Origin: an uncultured Clostridia bacterium
Lineage (GTDB): Bacteria > Bacillota > Clostridia > Oscillospirales > Ruminococcaceae
Length of the DNA: 64,000 nt
Direction: 5' to 3'
Assembly: GCA_945829235.1 (NCBI GenBank)
Contig: CALZUA010000017.1
Span: forward strand, 1 to 64,000
The position numbers and the translations under genes are program-made. The notes under the pieces are model-generated. The model saw only the letters and a list, made by a program, of their open reading frames with translations, did not search any database and had not been told where the DNA came from. Shown one piece after another: positions 28,845-35,605 of the stretch (its first letter is position 1; each line of letters begins with the position of its first letter).

Positions 28845-30662
28845 TCACTCAATCTCAAGGAATGCTTTCATAACCTCGAGCGCGTCTATTGAGTTAACGC
28901 GACCGTCGCGATTGAAATCGGCAACATCGTGGTTTGGAGCTTTTTCAATTTCCAGAAATTCCTTGATAATAGCCAGAGAGTCCTTTGCATTGAGGATACC
29001 GTCATTGTTCGCGTCACCGGGGAGGTCGCTGTAATCGCAGAGCATAACCGCGTAGTTCCCGAGCGCCGTTACGTTCGGCAGAATAACCGTTCCGTTCTCG
29101 TCAACCTTTGCGGTTTCCATAAAAAACAGCTCTTCGTCAATCTGCACATAGAGATTTGCAAATTTTCCCGCGTGTTTTTTGTTGAAATTAAACTCAAGGC
29201 TTGTCGGCAGATTTGTGTCCTCGGACGTGAATTTTGCTCCCGCAATGCCGCGCAGACCGCTTGTGTCAAGGTCGGCATCGGTGAGAATCGGTATATTTGC
29301 ATCCTGTAAAGAGGTGAGATTTGAGCCGTTGATTATCCAGCTGTACACGTTGTTTATTACCAGTTTAATTTTTCTGTTTGCGGGAACGGGCGTATCAAAC
29401 GGGTTGATAAAAATGTACGAGCCTATACCCTCAACATCTGCGCCGATAACGATATCGGTGATTTTCTCGTTGTAGTTCTTCCACGGAATTTCGCTTGTTT
29501 TGTAGCTGTTCATATTGCCCGTGCCGTCGATATCGAGCGTGTAGGTTTCGCCGTCCTCGTTCTGATAAAGAAGCCACGTTATGTCATCGCCGCACATTCC
29601 CGTCAGCTTGGGTTCTTCGGTGTGGTAATCCTCGGTTGAAACCGTGAGCAGTGCGCTGTCGTATAACTTCGTGGTATAATCAAAGTAAGAGTAGTCGATT
29701 TTGGTCTTCTCAAATCCGGGCGCTTCGATAGTGAACGAGCAGCCCTTTTCGTCTGCGGTTTCTGCGCCTTTCATAAACAGATAGCCGCCCTCACCGATTG
29801 TGCCTTCATCGCAGTTTGTCACGTCAACGAGATAGTTCTTCCCACCGAGAGTGACGATGTTCCACATATGATTGCTCACTTGCGTCTTGCCCGTTACCTG
29901 CGCGCATCTGACGGTTTTGTCGTCAAAATCGGTGATATCGCAGAGGTACTGAAACGCCTTGGCATAGCCATCGCAGACAACATTTGTCGCAGGGTCGTTG
30001 TCGAACACATAAATGAGTTGCCACGGGTCGCCGTAGGGAGTGTCGGGATTTTCCATCGCCTCGTGGTTGTAGGAAACCAGCTCGCAGATTTTGTCCTTGT
30101 AAGCCTTGAGCTTGTCGTAGTCGCTTTTGTCCTTGTTTTCCTCAACGATAGACTTTGCGTTTTCAATAGCCTTTGCCGCCGCCGCGATTTTCTCGGGATT
30201 TGCGGTATATTCATTCTCGCCCATATACGCATTCGCAAAAGGCAACGAGAATATCATTCCCGTGACGTACTTTTCCTCGTCAATTATTTCTATGGAATAC
30301 TCGGCTTTAAGACTGTCTTCTTTTGTAAAATCAAACCAGAACAGCTCATACGGATATTCGGCAAAAAGTGCGTCAATTAACAATGATTCTGCGAAAATTT
30401 GCTCGCCATAGTCATAAGGAACAAGTGTCGGGAGTTCAACCGTGAATATTGAGCTTGTGCGCTTGCCCGCGGCGATTTCTTCAATTCCCTCGCAAAGCCC
30501 TTTGTAGAGCGTCTGCATAAACTCGGGCTGTTTTGCAATATAGTCATCGCCTGCACCCGCAAAAGCGGTTACGCCCGCCGAAATTTCCGCGACATAAGCC
30601 GAGCTTACCGTCAAAGCCGCGGACATTGCCGCCGAGAGCAACCTTTTATGTGATTTTCTCAT
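28845..30662 (-). CDS. Secreted transglutaminase-like protein with C-terminal dockerin
   Basis: A 605-residue exported protein. The signal peptide (~1-35: basic MRKSHKR, then Ala/Val-rich core) is followed by a helical region (~45-180) and a transglutaminase-core domain with a readable triad: Cys in VVCDGYAKAF (~240), His in NHMWNIV (~280), Asp in YLVDVTN (~290). A beta-rich region (~350-540) comes next. A dockerin closes the protein with two Ca-binding loops, DANNDGILNAKD and DFNRDGRVNSID, each followed by a helix ending FLEIE. Dockerins plug enzymes into cohesins of a cellulosome or cell-surface scaffold, as in Ruminococcus. The role of transglutaminase-fold modules there (protease-like, crosslinking or inactive) is open. 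ATG 30662 has AAAGGA upstream. Confidence 0.85.
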   Translation of the reverse strand: MRKSHKRLLSAAMSAALTVSSAYVAEISAGVTAFAGAGDDYIAKQPEFMQTLYKGLCEGIEEIAAGKRTSSIFTVELPTLVPYDYGEQIFAESLLIDALFAEYPYELFWFDFTKEDSLKAEYSIEIIDEEKYVTGMIFSLPFANAYMGENEYTANPEKIAAAAKAIENAKSIVEENKDKSDYDKLKAYKDKICELVSYNHEAMENPDTPYGDPWQLIYVFDNDPATNVVCDGYAKAFQYLCDITDFDDKTVRCAQVTGKTQVSNHMWNIVTLGGKNYLVDVTNCDEGTIGEGGYLFMKGAETADEKGCSFTIEAPGFEKTKIDYSYFDYTTKLYDSALLTVSTEDYHTEEPKLTGMCGDDITWLLYQNEDGETYTLDIDGTGNMNSYKTSEIPWKNYNEKITDIVIGADVEGIGSYIFINPFDTPVPANRKIKLVINNVYSWIINGSNLTSLQDANIPILTDADLDTSGLRGIAGAKFTSEDTNLPTSLEFNFNKKHAGKFANLYVQIDEELFFMETAKVDENGTVILPNVTALGNYAVMLCDYSDLPGDANNDGILNAKDSLAIIKEFLEIEKAPNHDVADFNRDGRVNSIDALEVMKAFLEIE

Positions 30663-30709
30663 ACGATTATCCTTTCTCAAATACACTTACGTCCAAATTC
30701 GTACAATTC

Positions 30710-30738
30710 ATTATACCATAATTTTTCCCTATTTTCAA
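30710..30738 (-). promoter_or_regulatory. Promoter of the dockerin gene
   Basis: On the minus strand TTGAAA (30738-30733), a 17-bp spacer and TATAAT (30715-30710), about 45 nt before the start. Confidence 0.8.
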
Positions 30739-30841
30739 GACTGATTTTTTCGATTGTTTACCGTGATAACTTATTTCTCGCTTTGTGATTTTTGTTAAAT
30801 ATTTCCCAAAATTACAGAAAATTCTGTTGCGTTATAACAAA

Positions 30842-30878
30842 ATTCTACTAAACCTATTGACAAAGTAGAATAATAGGT
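30842..30878 (+). promoter_or_regulatory. Two interleaved inverted repeats over the cysteine-operon promoter
   Basis: Half-sites in order: ATTCTACT (30842-30849), ACCTATT (30852-30858), AGTAGAAT (30864-30871) and AATAGGT (30872-30878). The first pairs with the third and the second with the fourth as perfect inverted repeats. They cover the -35 box and spacer, a typical repressor position. A cysteine-responsive Rrf2-type (CymR-like) regulator is a plausible but unproven ligand. Confidence 0.55.
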
Positions 30879-30885
30879 GTATTAT
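30857..30885 (+). promoter_or_regulatory. Promoter of the cysteine operon
   Basis: TTGACA (30857-30862), a 17-bp spacer and TATTAT (30880-30885). The start near 30892 gives a leader of about 320 nt before cysK. Confidence 0.8.
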
Positions 30886-30955
30886 GTGATTATAAACCGA
30901 CAAGTTCACTAGGTGAACATCAACTTGCCGATAGCCTCCATCATTTTCATCACAC

Positions 30956-30991
30956 TGTACAACGGCAGGCGCACATTCTTGCCGTTGTACA
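30956..30991 (+). promoter_or_regulatory. Stable 12-bp hairpin in the cysteine-operon leader
   Basis: A perfect stem TGTACAACGGCA (30956-30967) with TGCCGTTGTACA (30980-30991) and a 12-nt loop. No T-run follows, so it is not a terminator. A second palindrome (GTTCAC-tag-GTGAAC) lies at about 30904-30918. Role unknown. Confidence 0.5.
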
Positions 30992-31044
30992 AAATCCTTT
31001 GAGGGAAATCGGAAAAGCGTATATTTTTGAGAGGTAAAATAATA

Positions 31045-31086
31045 ATGAAAATCAAGTTTTGTTGTATGTGCAAAGTAAAGATGTGA
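31045..31086 (+). CDS. Cysteine-rich leader peptide
   Basis: A 13-codon frame, MKIKFCCMCKVKM then TGA. Codons 6, 7 and 9 are Cys (TGT TGT at 31060-31065, TGC at 31069-31071), with Met between. GAGAGG lies about 10 nt before the ATG. It is in the leader of an operon for cysteine synthesis, and its Cys codons lie inside the first arm of a large stem. I read it as the sensor of a cysteine-responsive attenuator: scarce Cys-tRNA would stall the ribosome at these codons. Confidence 0.75.
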   Translation: MKIKFCCMCKVKM

Positions 31087-31156
31087 AAGCGGGAAATTTT
31101 CCCGCCAAAGCTTGCTTTACCGAAACGCATACAACAGCTTGAAATTTGATTTTGTG

Positions 31157-31188
31157 AGCTGTTTCATCTTGCATTGAAACAGCTTTTT
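31157..31188 (+). terminator. Conditional terminator before cysK
   Basis: A 9-bp stem AGCTGTTTC/GAAACAGCT with a 10-nt loop and TTTTT (31184-31188), only 25 nt before the cysK ATG. It is the 3:4 hairpin of the attenuator. Confidence 0.8.
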
Positions 31189-31212
31189 CATAATCAGCGA
31201 AGGAGGAGCGTT

Positions 31213-32106
31213 ATGACAATTCTTGATTTGATAGGAAACACGCCCCTGCTTGAGCTGGAGCCTGACGGGCTGAAAAAGGGAGTGAAGCTCCTCGGCAAAG
31301 CCGAGTTTATGAACGTAGGCGGCTCGGTTAAGGACAGGGCGGCGCGGGCGATGCTGTTGAACGGCATCGAGAGCGGGCGGCTTACCAAGGACAAAACAAT
31401 AATTGACGCTACCAGCGGCAACACCGGCATTTCCTACGCGATGATAGGCGCGGCGCTTGGGTATAAGGTGAAGCTGTGCATACCCGCAAACGTTTCTCCC
31501 GAGCGGCGGCATTTTATGAGAGCTTACGGAGCGGATATTGTGGAAACGTCCGCACTCGAGGGAATTGACGGCGCTTACAACGAGGTTTGGCGGATAATCG
31601 AAAGCGCGCCCGACGAGTACTTTTACCCCGACCAGTACAGCAACGATGAGAACTGGCTCGCGCACTACAACGGTACGGGCAGAGAAATCCTCTCGCAGAC
31701 GGGCGGTCACGTTACGCATTTTGTTGCGGGAACGGGCACTGCGGGAACATTCACGGGCTGTGTGAAGCGGCTCAAGGAGTACAACAGCGCGATAAAAGCC
31801 GTGATAATGCGCCCCGATTCTCCGTTCCACGGAATCGAGGGTATCAAGCACCCGTCCGCGCACGTTAAATCGAGCTTTTACGATGAAACGCTTGCCGATG
31901 AAACGGTTGAAATCACCACGGAGCAGGCGTATGAGATGACCAAAACGCTCGCCCGAAAGCACGGAATTTTCGTCGGAATAAGCTCGGGCGCGAACGTTCT
32001 CGCGGCGCTGAAAACCGCGGAAAATGCACCCGCCGGCTCGGTGATTGTCACGATTCTGTGTGACGGCGGCGGACGATATCTGTCAAATCCGCTTTGGGAG
32101 GTGTAG
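31213..32106 (+). CDS. cysK: Cysteine synthase (O-acetylserine or O-phosphoserine sulfhydrylase)
   Basis: A 297-residue PLP enzyme making cysteine from an activated serine and a sulfur donor. The PLP lysine is Lys40 in GGSVKDRAARAM. The substrate loop ATSGNTGISYAM and the phosphate-binding loop AGTGTAGTFTG are intact, and VGISSGANV is near the C-terminus. ATG 31213 has AAGGAGG upstream; a frame opening at 31174 would cross the terminator. It is followed after 2 nt by a JAMM peptidase. In actinobacteria that pairing marks the CysM/CysO/Mec route, in which sulfur comes from a carrier-protein thiocarboxylate, so the sulfide donor here may not be free sulfide. No carrier gene remains in the operon. 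Confidence 0.93.
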   Translation: MTILDLIGNTPLLELEPDGLKKGVKLLGKAEFMNVGGSVKDRAARAMLLNGIESGRLTKDKTIIDATSGNTGISYAMIGAALGYKVKLCIPANVSPERRHFMRAYGADIVETSALEGIDGAYNEVWRIIESAPDEYFYPDQYSNDENWLAHYNGTGREILSQTGGHVTHFVAGTGTAGTFTGCVKRLKEYNSAIKAVIMRPDSPFHGIEGIKHPSAHVKSSFYDETLADETVEITTEQAYEMTKTLARKHGIFVGISSGANVLAALKTAENAPAGSVIVTILCDGGGRYLSNPLWEV

Positions 32107-32108
32107 CG

Positions 32109-32624
32109 TTGATTACACTATCCAAAGAAGTTTTCGCGAACATTTCGGCAGACGGCGCGGCTTGTTACCCCGAGGAATGTTGCGGTATCATTTTCGGGAC
32201 AATTAACGAAAACGGCGATAAAACCGCACATTTCACCGAGCCTGTTGAAAACGGATTTGAACAGCGCGAGAAATATCACCGTTTTGAGATAACCCCCGAA
32301 ATTATGCTGAAAGCGGAACGCGCCGCTCGTAAAAAACGGCTCGATATCGTAGGATTTTACCACTCTCACCCCGACTGCAAGGCGTTTCCGTCCGAGTTTG
32401 ACCGCGCGCACGCTCTGCCTGTTTATTCGTACATAATCGTTTCCGTTGTCAAAGGGAGCGCGGTTGGTACAAGGAGCTTTGTGCTTTCGGCAGAGAATAT
32501 GCGGAAAAACCAACATTCTGCTTATCCGTACAGGCGAAGCAAAGCGCGGCGTTATCGGCTTGTATCAGGCAAATCTGAAGAACGAACAGTCGAGAGGTCT
32601 TTCCGTAAGATACAGAGGAATTGA
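32109..32624 (+). CDS. M67/JAMM metallopeptidase (Mec-like) with aberrant C-terminal tail
   Basis: A 171-codon frame. Residues 1-131 are a compact JAB/MPN domain with the full zinc motif: Glu in YPEECCGIIFG, then HSHPDCKAFPSEFD (His85, His87, Ser, Asp; HxHx7Sx2D). In the Mec/CysO system such enzymes release cysteine from the C-terminus of a sulfur carrier protein. The start is TTG 32109 with GGAGGTG upstream, 2 nt after cysK. From about codon 131 (32500) the reading becomes Arg/Lys-rich and unlike any peptidase. In the +1 frame the same DNA encodes the end of an encapsulin shell protein. The tail is thus out-of-frame readthrough across a deletion junction. The catalytic core may still be functional. 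Confidence 0.78.
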   Translation: MITLSKEVFANISADGAACYPEECCGIIFGTINENGDKTAHFTEPVENGFEQREKYHRFEITPEIMLKAERAARKKRLDIVGFYHSHPDCKAFPSEFDRAHALPVYSYIIVSVVKGSAVGTRSFVLSAENMRKNQHSAYPYRRSKARRYRLVSGKSEERTVERSFRKIQRN

Positions 32625-32742
32625 CGACAAGGGCGTGGCTTCCTACCTGCTCAGCCTTTACTGCTCGGCGGCTATCCTTTCGGACGACGCTATTGCAGTT
32701 TTGGAGGACGTTGAAGTAGGTGAATACTATGACTACGATTGA
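32503..32742 (+). pseudogene. Remnant (C-terminal ~79 codons) of a family 2A encapsulin shell gene
   Basis: In the frame beginning GGA AAA ACC (GKTNILLIRTGEAKRGVIGL) the DNA encodes the end of an SrpI-like family 2A shell protein. Recognisable conserved stretches are GKT-ILL-RTGE, GV-GL-Q, EQ--GLSVR--GI, SYL--LY-S-A-L-DDA-AVLEDVEV and a YDY-type end. About 230 residues of the usual ~310 are missing. No start codon with a ribosome site exists in this frame. It overlaps the tail of the JAMM gene at the left and the start of the desulfurase at the right (TGA 32740 lies after ATG 32729). In intact systems the shell gene lies immediately before its desulfurase cargo gene, as here. Confidence 0.8.
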
Positions 32743-34555
32743 CAGACTGCCCTCGGAAAGCGAGCTTGAAGCGCTTGCAAACGGCTTGTTTCCCGAGTAC
32801 AACACCGCCGAGTGTGCGGACGGTATTGAAAAGCTTGTCACGCAGGGCGATACGGCGGTTGTTGAAAGAGCCGTGCAAAAGTCTGAAAACCTGTTAAATC
32901 GCGAAGCCGTGCCTTTCCAAAGCGAAATCAACCGTCTTGACGGCTACGCGAGAGCGGCAGAGGAGGTTTTGGGAGAAGCGGCTCCGATAACCGCGGACGA
33001 ATTTTACCCCGAAACATCTCCGCTTGACGGTTTTGCACCCGTGGGAAATCTGAACACGGCGACGCTCCCGTTTACCGAGATAACCTCCGCGGCTCAAATA
33101 TCGGAACACGACATCAACCACCCGAAATACACTCTTGACGAGGACGATTTGAATACCGTGGTTTCCGAGCTTGACGGCTTCAGCGTTTACCGCGCGGAAA
33201 AAGCTCCCGAGCCGCAGAAATCCGAGGGTTATTCACCGGTTGTTGTTTCACAAGCGCAGGCGCAGAGCAATCCCGCTCCCCGAGCGCAGGGAAACGCTGT
33301 TAAGAGCAACAATTTCCGACAGAGCCACAACAATTCGATTATCATCGGCACAAAAACGCTCGAGCAAATCCGCAGTGATTTTCCGATACTCGCCGAGAAG
33401 ATAAACGGTCACGATTTGGTTTGGCTGGACAACGGCGCGACAACTCAGCGCCCGCAACAGGTTATCGACCGCCTTTCGCAGTATTACGCGCACGAAAACT
33501 CGAATGTACATAGAGGCGCGCACACGCTCGCCGCGCGTTCAACCGACGCTTACGAGGGTGCGCGGCAGACGGTTGCGGATTTTATCGGCGCGCCCGACAA
33601 GAACAACATCGTGTTCGTTAGAGGCACGACCGAGGCGATAAATCTCGTGGCAAACGCTTATGTGAAGCAGTATCTTCACGAGGGCGACGAGATTATTCTC
33701 ACACTTCTCGAGCACCACGCAAATATTGTTCCGTGGCAACTTATCGCGCAGGAAACCGGTGCTGTGATAAAGGTTGCGCCCGTGGATAAAACAGGGCAGA
33801 TTATCCTTTCGGAGTATGAAAAGCTGTTTACAAAGCGCACGAAATTCGTTTCGGCAACGCACGTTTCAAACGTTCTCGGAACAATTACACCGGTAGCGGA
33901 GCTTATTTCAATCGCCCACGCTCACGGCGTGAGAATACTCATAGACGGCGCGCAGTCCGTTGCGCATATTCCCGTGAACGTTTCTGCTCTTGACGCGGAC
34001 TTTTTCGTGTTCTCGGGACACAAGATTTTTGCACCGACGGGAATTGGCGTTGTTTACGGCAAAAAGGAGCTTCTCGAAGCGGCAAGACCTTATCAGGGCG
34101 GCGGAAATATGATTGCGGATGTGACGTTTGAGCGCACCGTTTACAATCCCGCGCCGAACAAATTTGAAGCGGGAACGGCAAGCATTGCGGACGCAGTTGG
34201 ACTTGGCGCGGCGCTTGAGTATCTCAACTCAATCGGAATGCCCGAGATAAGCCGCTATGAGCACGAGCTTGTTTCCTACGGAATGAAGGAGCTTGCGAAA
34301 ATCCCGGGGCTTCACCTCATCGGCACGGCTTCTCAAAAATCGAGCGCATTGTCCTTCGTGCTTGATGGCTACGACAACGAAACCGCCGGACAGCACCTCG
34401 ACAAATTCGGCATCGCCGTGAGGACGGGACATCACTGCGCTCAACCCATTTTGCGGTCATTCGGGCTGGAGGGAGTTGTCCGTCCGACGCTTGCGCTGTA
34501 CAACTCGCCCAAGGATATCGACAGACTTGTACGGGCAATTCGTTCGCTCACATAA
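32729..34555 (+). CDS. Cysteine desulfurase with encapsulin-cargo-type N-terminal extension
   Basis: A 608-residue SufS/CsdA-type (group II) enzyme: cysteine to alanine plus enzyme-bound persulfide, PLP-dependent. Catalytic core ~210-608: VWLDNGATTQRP, VFVRGTTEAINLVA, EHHANIVPWQ, PLP Lys432 in FSGHKIFAPTGIG, sulfur-carrying Cys570 in RTGHHCAQPIL. The first ~205 residues are a low-complexity, probably disordered extension opening with LPSESELEALANGLFPE, then Asp/Gly/Pro/Gln-rich sequence. Such an extension targets family 2A desulfurases into the shell. ATG 32729 is used; GTG 32720 is in frame upstream. The start overlaps the stop of the shell remnant, a relic of coupling. With the shell lost, the cargo may work free in the cytoplasm. 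Confidence 0.9.
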   Translation: MTTIDRLPSESELEALANGLFPEYNTAECADGIEKLVTQGDTAVVERAVQKSENLLNREAVPFQSEINRLDGYARAAEEVLGEAAPITADEFYPETSPLDGFAPVGNLNTATLPFTEITSAAQISEHDINHPKYTLDEDDLNTVVSELDGFSVYRAEKAPEPQKSEGYSPVVVSQAQAQSNPAPRAQGNAVKSNNFRQSHNNSIIIGTKTLEQIRSDFPILAEKINGHDLVWLDNGATTQRPQQVIDRLSQYYAHENSNVHRGAHTLAARSTDAYEGARQTVADFIGAPDKNNIVFVRGTTEAINLVANAYVKQYLHEGDEIILTLLEHHANIVPWQLIAQETGAVIKVAPVDKTGQIILSEYEKLFTKRTKFVSATHVSNVLGTITPVAELISIAHAHGVRILIDGAQSVAHIPVNVSALDADFFVFSGHKIFAPTGIGVVYGKKELLEAARPYQGGGNMIADVTFERTVYNPAPNKFEAGTASIADAVGLGAALEYLNSIGMPEISRYEHELVSYGMKELAKIPGLHLIGTASQKSSALSFVLDGYDNETAGQHLDKFGIAVRTGHHCAQPILRSFGLEGVVRPTLALYNSPKDIDRLVRAIRSLT

Positions 34556-34648: not shown

Positions 34649-35605
34649 ATGCACAGACTTGAAACCGAGGTCAACAAACTCACGGAGGATATTCTCGCGG
34701 ACTACGAGCAGGGGCGGGATATCGACAATATCCACACCTTCGACCACCCGAACAAAGAGGTTATAATCGAGATTGTGGACAAGCTTCGGAACATCATTTT
34801 CCCCGGCTATTTCAAAAACGGAACTTACCGTATTTACACCGTGCGGAACAATATGACAATGCTCTTGGAGGACGTTTTGTACAACCTCATCAAGCAGATT
34901 TCGATTGTATTGCGGTACGTTCCCGAGTATGAAAAAGCGCACGAAAGCGAGATTTCCGCGGAAGCGGAGCGGCTCGCGCTGAAGTTTCTGGGAACGATAC
35001 CGAAAATTCGCGAGTATGTCGATACGGACGTGCAGGCGGCTTTTGACGGCGACCCCGCCGCGTTCAACAAGGACGAGATAATCTTCTCCTATCCGGGGCT
35101 GTTTGCAGTAATGGTGAACAGGATTGCTCATGAGCTGTATTTGCTCAACATTCCGCTGATACCGAGGATAATGACGGAGTACGCGCACAGCGTGACGGGA
35201 ATTGACATTCACCCCGGCGCAACAATCGGCAAATTCTTCTTCATCGACCACGGAACGGGGATTGTTATCGGCGAAACGACGGTTATCGGCGACAACGTGA
35301 AGATTTATCAGGGCGTGACGCTCGGTGCGCTTTCAACGCGCGGCGGGCAGAAGCTCAAGAGCAAAAAGCGTCACCCGACCATTGACGACAACGTCACGAT
35401 TTATTCGGGCGCGTCAATTCTCGGCGGAGAAACGGTTGTCGGGAAGAATGTTGTTGTCGGCGGCAACGCGTTTATCACGAAATCCGTTCCCGATGGCGCG
35501 AGAGTGAGCATCAAAAATCAGGAATTGCGCTACAACTATGACGCGGCTCACCCTGTTCAGCGCGCGGAGTTTGAGGTTGACGACAGCTGGTTCTATGTTA
35601 TTTAG
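34649..35605 (+). CDS. cysE: Serine O-acetyltransferase (EpsC type)
   Basis: A 318-residue enzyme that acetylates serine with acetyl-CoA to make the precursor of cysteine. An N-terminal helical domain (~1-180) is followed by a left-handed beta-helix of hexapeptide repeats: IDIHPGATIGKFFFIDHGTGIVIGET, VKIYQGVTLGALSTRGG, and NVTIYSGASILGGETVVGKN. The His/Asp pair in FIDHGTG and the KKRHPTIDDNV stretch fit the EpsC subgroup, which is longer than E. coli CysE. The C-terminus ends DSWFYVI; in CysE proteins the tail often docks into the active site of CysK. CGGAGG precedes ATG 34649. It is the last gene of the cysteine operon. Confidence 0.93.
   Translation: MHRLETEVNKLTEDILADYEQGRDIDNIHTFDHPNKEVIIEIVDKLRNIIFPGYFKNGTYRIYTVRNNMTMLLEDVLYNLIKQISIVLRYVPEYEKAHESEISAEAERLALKFLGTIPKIREYVDTDVQAAFDGDPAAFNKDEIIFSYPGLFAVMVNRIAHELYLLNIPLIPRIMTEYAHSVTGIDIHPGATIGKFFFIDHGTGIVIGETTVIGDNVKIYQGVTLGALSTRGGQKLKSKKRHPTIDDNVTIYSGASILGGETVVGKNVVVGGNAFITKSVPDGARVSIKNQELRYNYDAAHPVQRAEFEVDDSWFYVI

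Follow-up and report, generated by a model that had tools for sequence, protein, structure and literature searches.

A probable cysteine-codon leader attenuator ahead of an encapsulin-type cysteine operon in a Clostridia genome

In proteobacteria, the leader attenuators of the trp and his operons combine a short open reading frame (ORF) carrying the regulatory codons with alternating helices and an intrinsic terminator before the first gene; the his attenuator has more than four segments and terminates when its leader is untranslated. The T-box also senses tRNA charging to control expression. Leader ORFs with Cys codons in Actinobacteria are reportedly leaderless, going by the title of Canestrari 2020. 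In the passages of PMC8632094 that deal with it, uORFC-8-2 of Rhodobacterales is an AUG-started upstream ORF before cysS, with tandem Cys codons in the first stem and an intrinsic terminator, and Cys-tRNA attenuation is proposed for it. Runs of Cys codons before the cys operons of Actinobacteria are described, in extracts of PMC1262725, as having no conserved terminator hairpins. His leader peptides with His codons occur in bacilli at hisS/hisZ genes, and their authors state, in the relevant extract, that no amino-acid leader peptide had been known to them earlier outside Proteobacteria and Actinobacteria (PMC2965389). An extract of PMC8049743 links the family 2A encapsulin with sulfur starvation.

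Here, we describe a leader in a 64-kb stretch of Clostridia DNA (64,000 nucleotides, hereafter the window). We propose that positions 31030-31188 are very probably a transcription attenuator, mediated by the ribosome and sensing charged tRNA-Cys. At low levels of charged tRNA-Cys, the switch would probably activate an operon for cysteine and sulfur handling; we infer this direction of regulation, from Cys shortage to read-through. The features are collected in Table 1.

Table 1. Features of the leader region and downstream operon, in window coordinates
Feature	Position	Strand	Basis
Sigma-70-type promoter, TTGACA-17-TATTAT	30857..30885	+	consensus at 11/12 positions; similar sequence aligned in four relatives
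Extra 5' UTR, about 95 nt, with 14-bp hairpin	30921..31033 (approximate limits)	+	alignment, fold; missing from four relatives
Shine-Dalgarno sequence AGAGG of leader ORF	31030..31034	+	sequence; 10 nt 5' of ATG
Leader ORF MKIKFCCMCKVKM	31045..31086	+	sequence, chance test, counterparts in four relatives
Segment 1 (Cys codons); partner segment C 31126-31136	31060..31070	+	folds, script; 34/36 cells paired, 4 sequences
Segment A (ORF end); partner segment B	31075..31084	+	folds
Segment B; partner A or alternatively C	31110..31120	+	folds, alignment
Segment C; antiterminator strand 31133-31140	31126..31140	+	C:D 40/40 cells, 5 sequences
Segment D, common to antiterminator and terminator	31156..31167	+	script, alignments
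Segment E and U-run, intrinsic terminator	31175..31188	+	D:E 59/60 cells, 5 sequences; -14.8 kcal/mol alone
cysK/cysM-type cysteine synthase, 297 aa	31213..32106	+	PALP; best NCBIfam cysM 318.2 bits, below cut-off 394.2
JAB-type metalloprotease, 3' end replaced at junction near 32501	32109..32624	+	domain match, alignment
Family 2A encapsulin shell gene remnant, C-terminal ~80 residues	32502..32742	+	alignment: 107 residues, one internal stop
SufS-like cysteine desulfurase, long N-terminal extension, encapsulin-cargo type	32720..34555	+	NF041166 789.6 bits, just under cut-off 800
Serine O-acetyltransferase (cysE/epsC type)	34649..35605	+	NF041874 154.8 bits, above cut-off 150

Leader frame and alternative helices

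A 13-codon Cys-rich frame with a ribosome site had been claimed in a preliminary description of this DNA, and its coordinates are as given there: read directly, the frame starts with the ATG at 31045, ends with the TGA at 31084-31086 and carries its Cys codons at 31060-31065 and 31069-31071. Among 20,000 dinucleotide shuffles of 30893-31212, 7 contained an ATG-started ORF of 8-30 codons that has a Shine-Dalgarno sequence and three or more Cys within four codons, a rarity to be read with the knowledge that the thresholds, here and in the structure tests below, were chosen post hoc with the sequence already seen. On both strands of the 64-kb window, it is the sole Cys-clustered one among 38 short ORFs with a Shine-Dalgarno sequence and ATG start.

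The leader ORF begins 160 nt after the promoter-like site, and the large ORF upstream of the leader has the opposite orientation. By eye, an inverted repeat ACCTATT...AATAGGT lies across the promoter (30850-30880), and ordinary cysK promoters have CCTATAA...ATAGGT-like repeats directly 3' of the -10 box. These promoter-associated inverted repeats are perhaps a candidate operator of a cysteine regulator, for which we take a CymR-like protein to be a candidate. Between promoter and leader, the extra 5' UTR (30921-31033) has no full match among 43 genomes of the genus except in its own genome.

The 5' UTR ahead of the leader ORF folds better than shuffles (z -3.5), as might be seen if a metabolite riboswitch or a protein-binding RNA governed the terminator and the ORF were incidental. 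We consider this highly improbable: much of the extra 5' UTR is missing from the relatives, and conservation sits in the ORF and segments A-E. The leader itself matches no Rfam family above the gathering score and no T-box (RF00230), the one Rfam match near it is at chance level (E 0.83), and the leaders of the four relatives described below (L213, L214, L217 and L221) likewise gave no Rfam match above the gathering score.

The helices that the preliminary description had placed downstream were recovered by script, namely a 9-bp stem between the Cys codons and segment C (31060-31068 with 31128-31136), a 7-bp antiterminator (31133-31139 with 31157-31163) and a terminator ahead of cysK (31157-31188), and these beat shuffles. 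The terminator has 10 Watson-Crick pairs (31157-31166 with 31175-31184) and a T-run at 31184-31188, and it ends 24 nt before the start of cysK at 31213; a simple terminator scanner listed none in 30600-31300. Terminator and antiterminator have one arm in common, segment D, and are mutually exclusive. The 1:2 stem is present, but its extent had been set too short; it is truly far longer, pairing 31048-31070 with 31126-31153 (-38.6 kcal/mol alone). The helices of the proposed 1:2 / 2:3 / 3:4 scheme were all found, but its count of segments was too low, as relatives show further alternating segments. An origin of the long stem from a repeat or mobile element was considered and rejected, as 31020-31195 matches only itself in the genome.

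Folded alone, 31036-31195 has a z of -7.9. When the post-ORF region was shuffled, a comparable terminator (at least 9 bp with a T-run) arose in 12 of 20,000 sequences, and terminator, antiterminator and ORF pairing together arose in none of 20,000. When the terminator was kept and the rest of that region was shuffled, the antiterminator arose in 947 of 20,000 and all three in 12 of 20,000, under an antiterminator rule that admits G-U; a rule forbidding G-U scored the real sequence as a miss.

Relatives and modelled ribosome positions

When an alignment of the synthase was searched against 396 family genomes, a subset of a larger group, five genes besides the window's own were found at E up to 1e-108. 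Three same-family relatives carry the leader upstream of an 83%-identical cysK, with the peptides MIMQFCSCMCKMRM (L213), MKKLFCCFMCKVQM (L214) and MRMLFCCCMCIGQM (L217). In L214 and L217, a DUF2292 gene (by Pfam in L214, by eye in L217) stands between leader and cysK, and the L217 contig ends inside cysK; L213 and L214 have three Cys in five codons and would fail the strict three-in-four rule. A covariance model of the four leaders found a fifth, MKKWFCCCMCRVQM (L221, E 4.4e-35), which lies outside the model's training set. It precedes a DUF2292-like frame and a cysK-cysE remnant, in which the first 30-36 residues of cysK are fused in frame to residues 193-318 of cysE. With a limit of E 0.01, the model had matches in 15 of these 396 genomes. 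Five reached E 1e-33 or better; the other ten were weak (E between 3e-4 and 0.01), of which six are confined to the 3' part and four are full length (G1055, G064, G044 and G972; E 0.003-0.01). Among the six genomes of the genus of G1031, G1031 alone was matched.

All five leader peptides have FC, MC and a final ATG TGA, with 3-4 Cys each, and vary at other positions; the differences by codon position number 22, 40 and 33, with no excess at the third. The preliminary expectation that the leader frame recurs upstream of cysK in relatives held at 83% identity (three relatives) and failed at 57-66% (eight orthologs), so that 4 of the 12 Firmicutes orthologs readable upstream, the window included, have it. 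The eight without it are L032, L033, L034, L072, L134, L135, L215 and L216, in which model R1 gave no match at E up to 1. In the first six (58-66%), no sense Cys cluster (three in four codons) was found within 400 nt upstream, and looser listings show no leader-like ORF with a Shine-Dalgarno sequence; L215 and L216 are 57% and 63% identical to the window cysK. A TTG-started frame with four scattered Cys in L216 was not counted, as it lies upstream of a promoter-like sequence (by eye). The leader is present in close orthologs and in no distant ones; therefore, it is a family-level element. Among the 43 genomes of the same genus, a full leader DNA match occurs in the window's own genome only, and short matches occur in five others (E 0.002-0.008). 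Four of the genus (G001, G005, G007 and G010) have the encapsulin operon with JAB first and no Cys-rich ORF with a Shine-Dalgarno sequence nearby; in three of these, a DUF2292-like frame lies ahead of JAB (by eye). A search of viral contigs found no relative.

In the five-sequence alignment, all 40 cells of the antiterminator C:D are paired, as are all but one of the 60 cells of the terminator D:E, and slid controls on the first four sequences reached 34-63% and 32-59%, respectively, versus 100% for the real registers. The Cys-codon stem (segment 1 with C) is paired in all but two of 36 cells in four sequences. Two further helices appear in the relatives: A:B, which joins the ORF end to segment B and is paired in all 48 cells of the four relatives, and B:C (31 of 32 cells). 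In the relatives' register, the window makes only 4 of 11 A:B pairs and 2 of 5 B:C pairs; folding gives it an A:B helix of its own register (31075-31084 with 31110-31120), plus B:C in other registers. Of the covariation that had been looked for, the pairings were kept but two-sided compensatory changes were found in none of the helices among the five sequences, every change being one-sided via G-U. In the column-shuffle control, every one of the 500 shuffles did as well as the real alignment for C:D and D:E, as did 377-500 of 500 for the Cys-codon stem. With shuffles doing so well and the changes one-sided in so few sequences (five), covariation proves nothing yet; the predicted helices are consistent across relatives, and covariation gives no proof of them.

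We propose the following mechanism. When Cys-tRNA is ample, the ribosome would reach the stop codon and then either leave or cover A, so that B could pair with C; with C occupied, the D:E terminator would form and RNA polymerase would stop near 31188. When Cys-tRNA is scarce, the ribosome would stall on the first Cys codons, blocking their pairing with C. The stall would leave A:B formed, and C could capture D, allowing the operon to be transcribed. In an untranslated leader, segment 1 or B would pair with C and transcription would stop too.

Ribosome positions were modelled by masking the 17 nt that precede the A-site and the 14 nt that follow it, an assumed footprint. In the free RNA of the window, the antiterminator has a probability of 0.00 at every length modelled. 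A ribosome on a Cys codon raises it to 0.87-0.96 for 3' ends 31164-31180, and one at the stop codon to 0.66-0.96 at intermediate lengths; since the latter position also permits the antiterminator, the window needs ribosome release. With segment E fully transcribed (from 31184 on), the equilibrium favours the terminator even if a ribosome is stalled; thus, read-through must be kinetic. At the end of segment D, the expected numbers of C:D pairs with no ribosome, a ribosome at the first Cys codon and a ribosome at the stop codon are 0.0, 5.7 and 3.7 in the window, 4.1, 1.4 and 1.7 in L213, 2.5, 4.9 and 1.1 in L214, 0.3, 8.7 and 6.3 in L217, and 6.2, 10.6 and 6.7 in L221. The first-Cys stall thus exceeds the stop-codon ribosome in four of five sequences, with L213 the opposite. 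In the full RNA, L221 alone among the five switches cleanly (C:D 8.1 and D:E 2.9 at the first Cys codon, C:D 0.1 and D:E 11.7 at the stop codon); L217 runs contrary to the model, with C:D at 2.9 for the first Cys codon versus 5.3 for the stop codon, and the terminator keeps at least 10.5 pairs in all states of the window, L213 and L214.

These folds bear on two other readings. First, the leader may be a general sensor of translation status, in which the ORF is translated, the Cys codons play a minor part and any ribosome arrest leads to read-through. Indeed, any mask over segment 1, that at the stop codon included, permits the window antiterminator, and the peptide also has conserved Met codons and ends in ATG TGA; however, each of the five leaders keeps its 3-4 Cys codons while other positions vary, and the downstream genes make cysteine, which leaves such a sensor unlikely. 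Second, the terminator may be constitutive, the ORF arising by chance with no regulation, or the whole may be a relic of a former switch. A terminator stable in nearly all modelled states and an operon damaged in the window genome, G1101 and G903 would fit this; the chance statistics for the ORF and for the three-way arrangement, together with a leader and alternative pairings conserved in five genomes, argue against it and make it very doubtful. A Cys-tRNA attenuator remains our preferred reading of the leader.

The downstream operon

Judged by domain matches and alignments, the genes under the leader are a family 2A encapsulin-type cysteine operon, with the shell gene missing here. In relatives, the operon consists of cysK, JAB, ThiS-ThiF-rhodanese, the family 2A encapsulin, the cargo desulfurase and cysE, and their shell protein matches NF041162 at 491.6 bits (cut-off 380), with SrpI among the solved structures. 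Aligned with L235 of G903, the window passes from JAB to encapsulin similarity at about 32501, across a gap of ~2.3 kb (a deletion or an assembly fault). The window lacks ThiS-ThiF-rhodanese and most of the shell gene and keeps the cargo desulfurase; the encapsulin remnant is the only encapsulin match in the genome. The JAB gene continues, in a different frame, into the terminal portion of the encapsulin gene (32490-32742).

The cysK frame of G903 has two stop codons, and in G1101 cysK is fused to cysE in one frame over a large gap. The leader is retained despite the decayed operon in both G1101 (L221/L233) and G903 (L235:1603-2496). Half of the 16 loci scanned (8: L072, L114-L117, L214, L217 and L221) have a repeated CTGACCGGA-N-CCGGAGGTTTT element ahead of the sulfur operon, upstream of JAB or cysK and mostly directly 3' of a DUF2292-like frame (frames by eye except in L214).

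Other cysteine leaders and comparison with known systems

The window's own genome has six T-box matches, two of them above the cut-off. One of these two, predicted T-box L207 (G000:C8:8842-9053, 94.4 bits), lies ahead of cysE-cysS: the gene after it is a hexapeptide-repeat gene, cysE by eye, and the next one has a cysteinyl-type class I synthetase domain. With this T-box and the Cys leader, the genome probably has two means of sensing tRNA-Cys. Matches L206 and L211 (G000:C4) score 116.9 bits (above the cut-off) and 37.2 bits (weak and partial); the genes after them have similar N-termini and by eye resemble genes for secreted proteins of unassigned function rather than amino-acid genes.

From other phyla, we compared 22 orthologous cysK loci that are at least 46% identical and have a sufficiently long upstream region, a length of which L035, L046 and L056 fell short. 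In six (L039, L041, L044, L047, L049 and L057), the 400 nt ahead of cysK contain a Cys cluster in the sense direction, and none of the 22 has one on the opposite strand; shuffled sets averaged 0.63 and peaked at 4, and 0 of 500 reached 6. Two of the six, L041 and L044, look closely alike by eye. A terminator of -17 kcal/mol or better stands between cluster and cysK in four of the six, and among the other 16 loci a terminator-like hairpin was found in three, one of them strong (L054). The poly-Cys frames of these six loci (CCCCC, CPCCCPC, CCCCCC and similar) come from records titled as Pyrinomonadaceae, Acidobacteria, Ignavibacteriae, Bacteroidota and Neomarinimicrobiota.

A candidate second family of Cys leaders, termed RC leaders, may precede ordinary cysK genes. 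Of 157 cysK regions, 16 carry the sequence CGATGTTG in the 230 nt preceding the gene and none has it in antisense; in 15 of the 16, CGA-TGT-TGN is in frame with a start behind a Shine-Dalgarno-like sequence under a permissive rule. Such frames are present in the same-genus genomes G006, G013, G022 and G040, and a search for the pattern across the genus was unspecific. The loci (L022, L085, L093, L094, L095, L100, L120, L123, L126, L127, L129, L143, L146, L150 and L002) have the leader ~76-145 nt upstream of cysK, with peptides such as MKTTKRC, MNVLYEPRRC and MITRMSQRCCGI. No terminator was seen by eye in the loci first read, and 13 loci gave no Rfam match to the leader, the sole hit (Gut-1 in L100) sitting downstream.

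Considering these leaders together, we give about even chances to a broader view, in which Clostridia would use two or more unrelated translated leaders to read Cys-tRNA supply at cysteine synthase genes: the FC-MC attenuator on the encapsulin-type operon, with read-through only upon a stall at the first Cys codons, and the CGA-UGU-UGN ORFs before ordinary cysK. The same logic would hold for the poly-Cys leaders before orthologous cysK in other phyla.

The finding directs attention to further Cys-codon leaders ahead of cysK genes, a wider set that lies outside Rfam families in the loci tested. It also gives the encapsulin-associated sulfur operon a concrete, testable candidate signal, cysteine limitation. 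As the Cys leader and the predicted T-box before cysE-cysS occur in one genome, two modes of reading one and the same tRNA could be compared in one cell. Among the matches listed, the open-licence literature described no Cys leader from Clostridia and none preceding an encapsulin operon.

The attenuation logic is textbook; the Clostridia host and cysteine are unusual for such a switch. The window leader resembles the trp and his leaders in its regulatory codons, alternating helices and terminator, and differs from them in its host and its Cys codons. With uORFC-8-2, as far as the extracts describe it, it shares the layout of a Cys upstream ORF and a terminator, and it is set apart by phylum and by gene, which there is cysS. 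Unlike the reportedly leaderless poly-Cys ORFs of Actinobacteria, it has a terminator and a promoter-like site well upstream. Unlike the window leader, a T-box binds tRNA directly and has no ORF. The His leaders of bacilli, as the extract presents them, are similarly a leader-peptide system of Firmicutes, where T-boxes are usual, with His in place of Cys. If the proposed mechanism is true, cysteine and the Clostridia would join the short list of leader-peptide attenuators beyond proteobacteria and actinobacteria.
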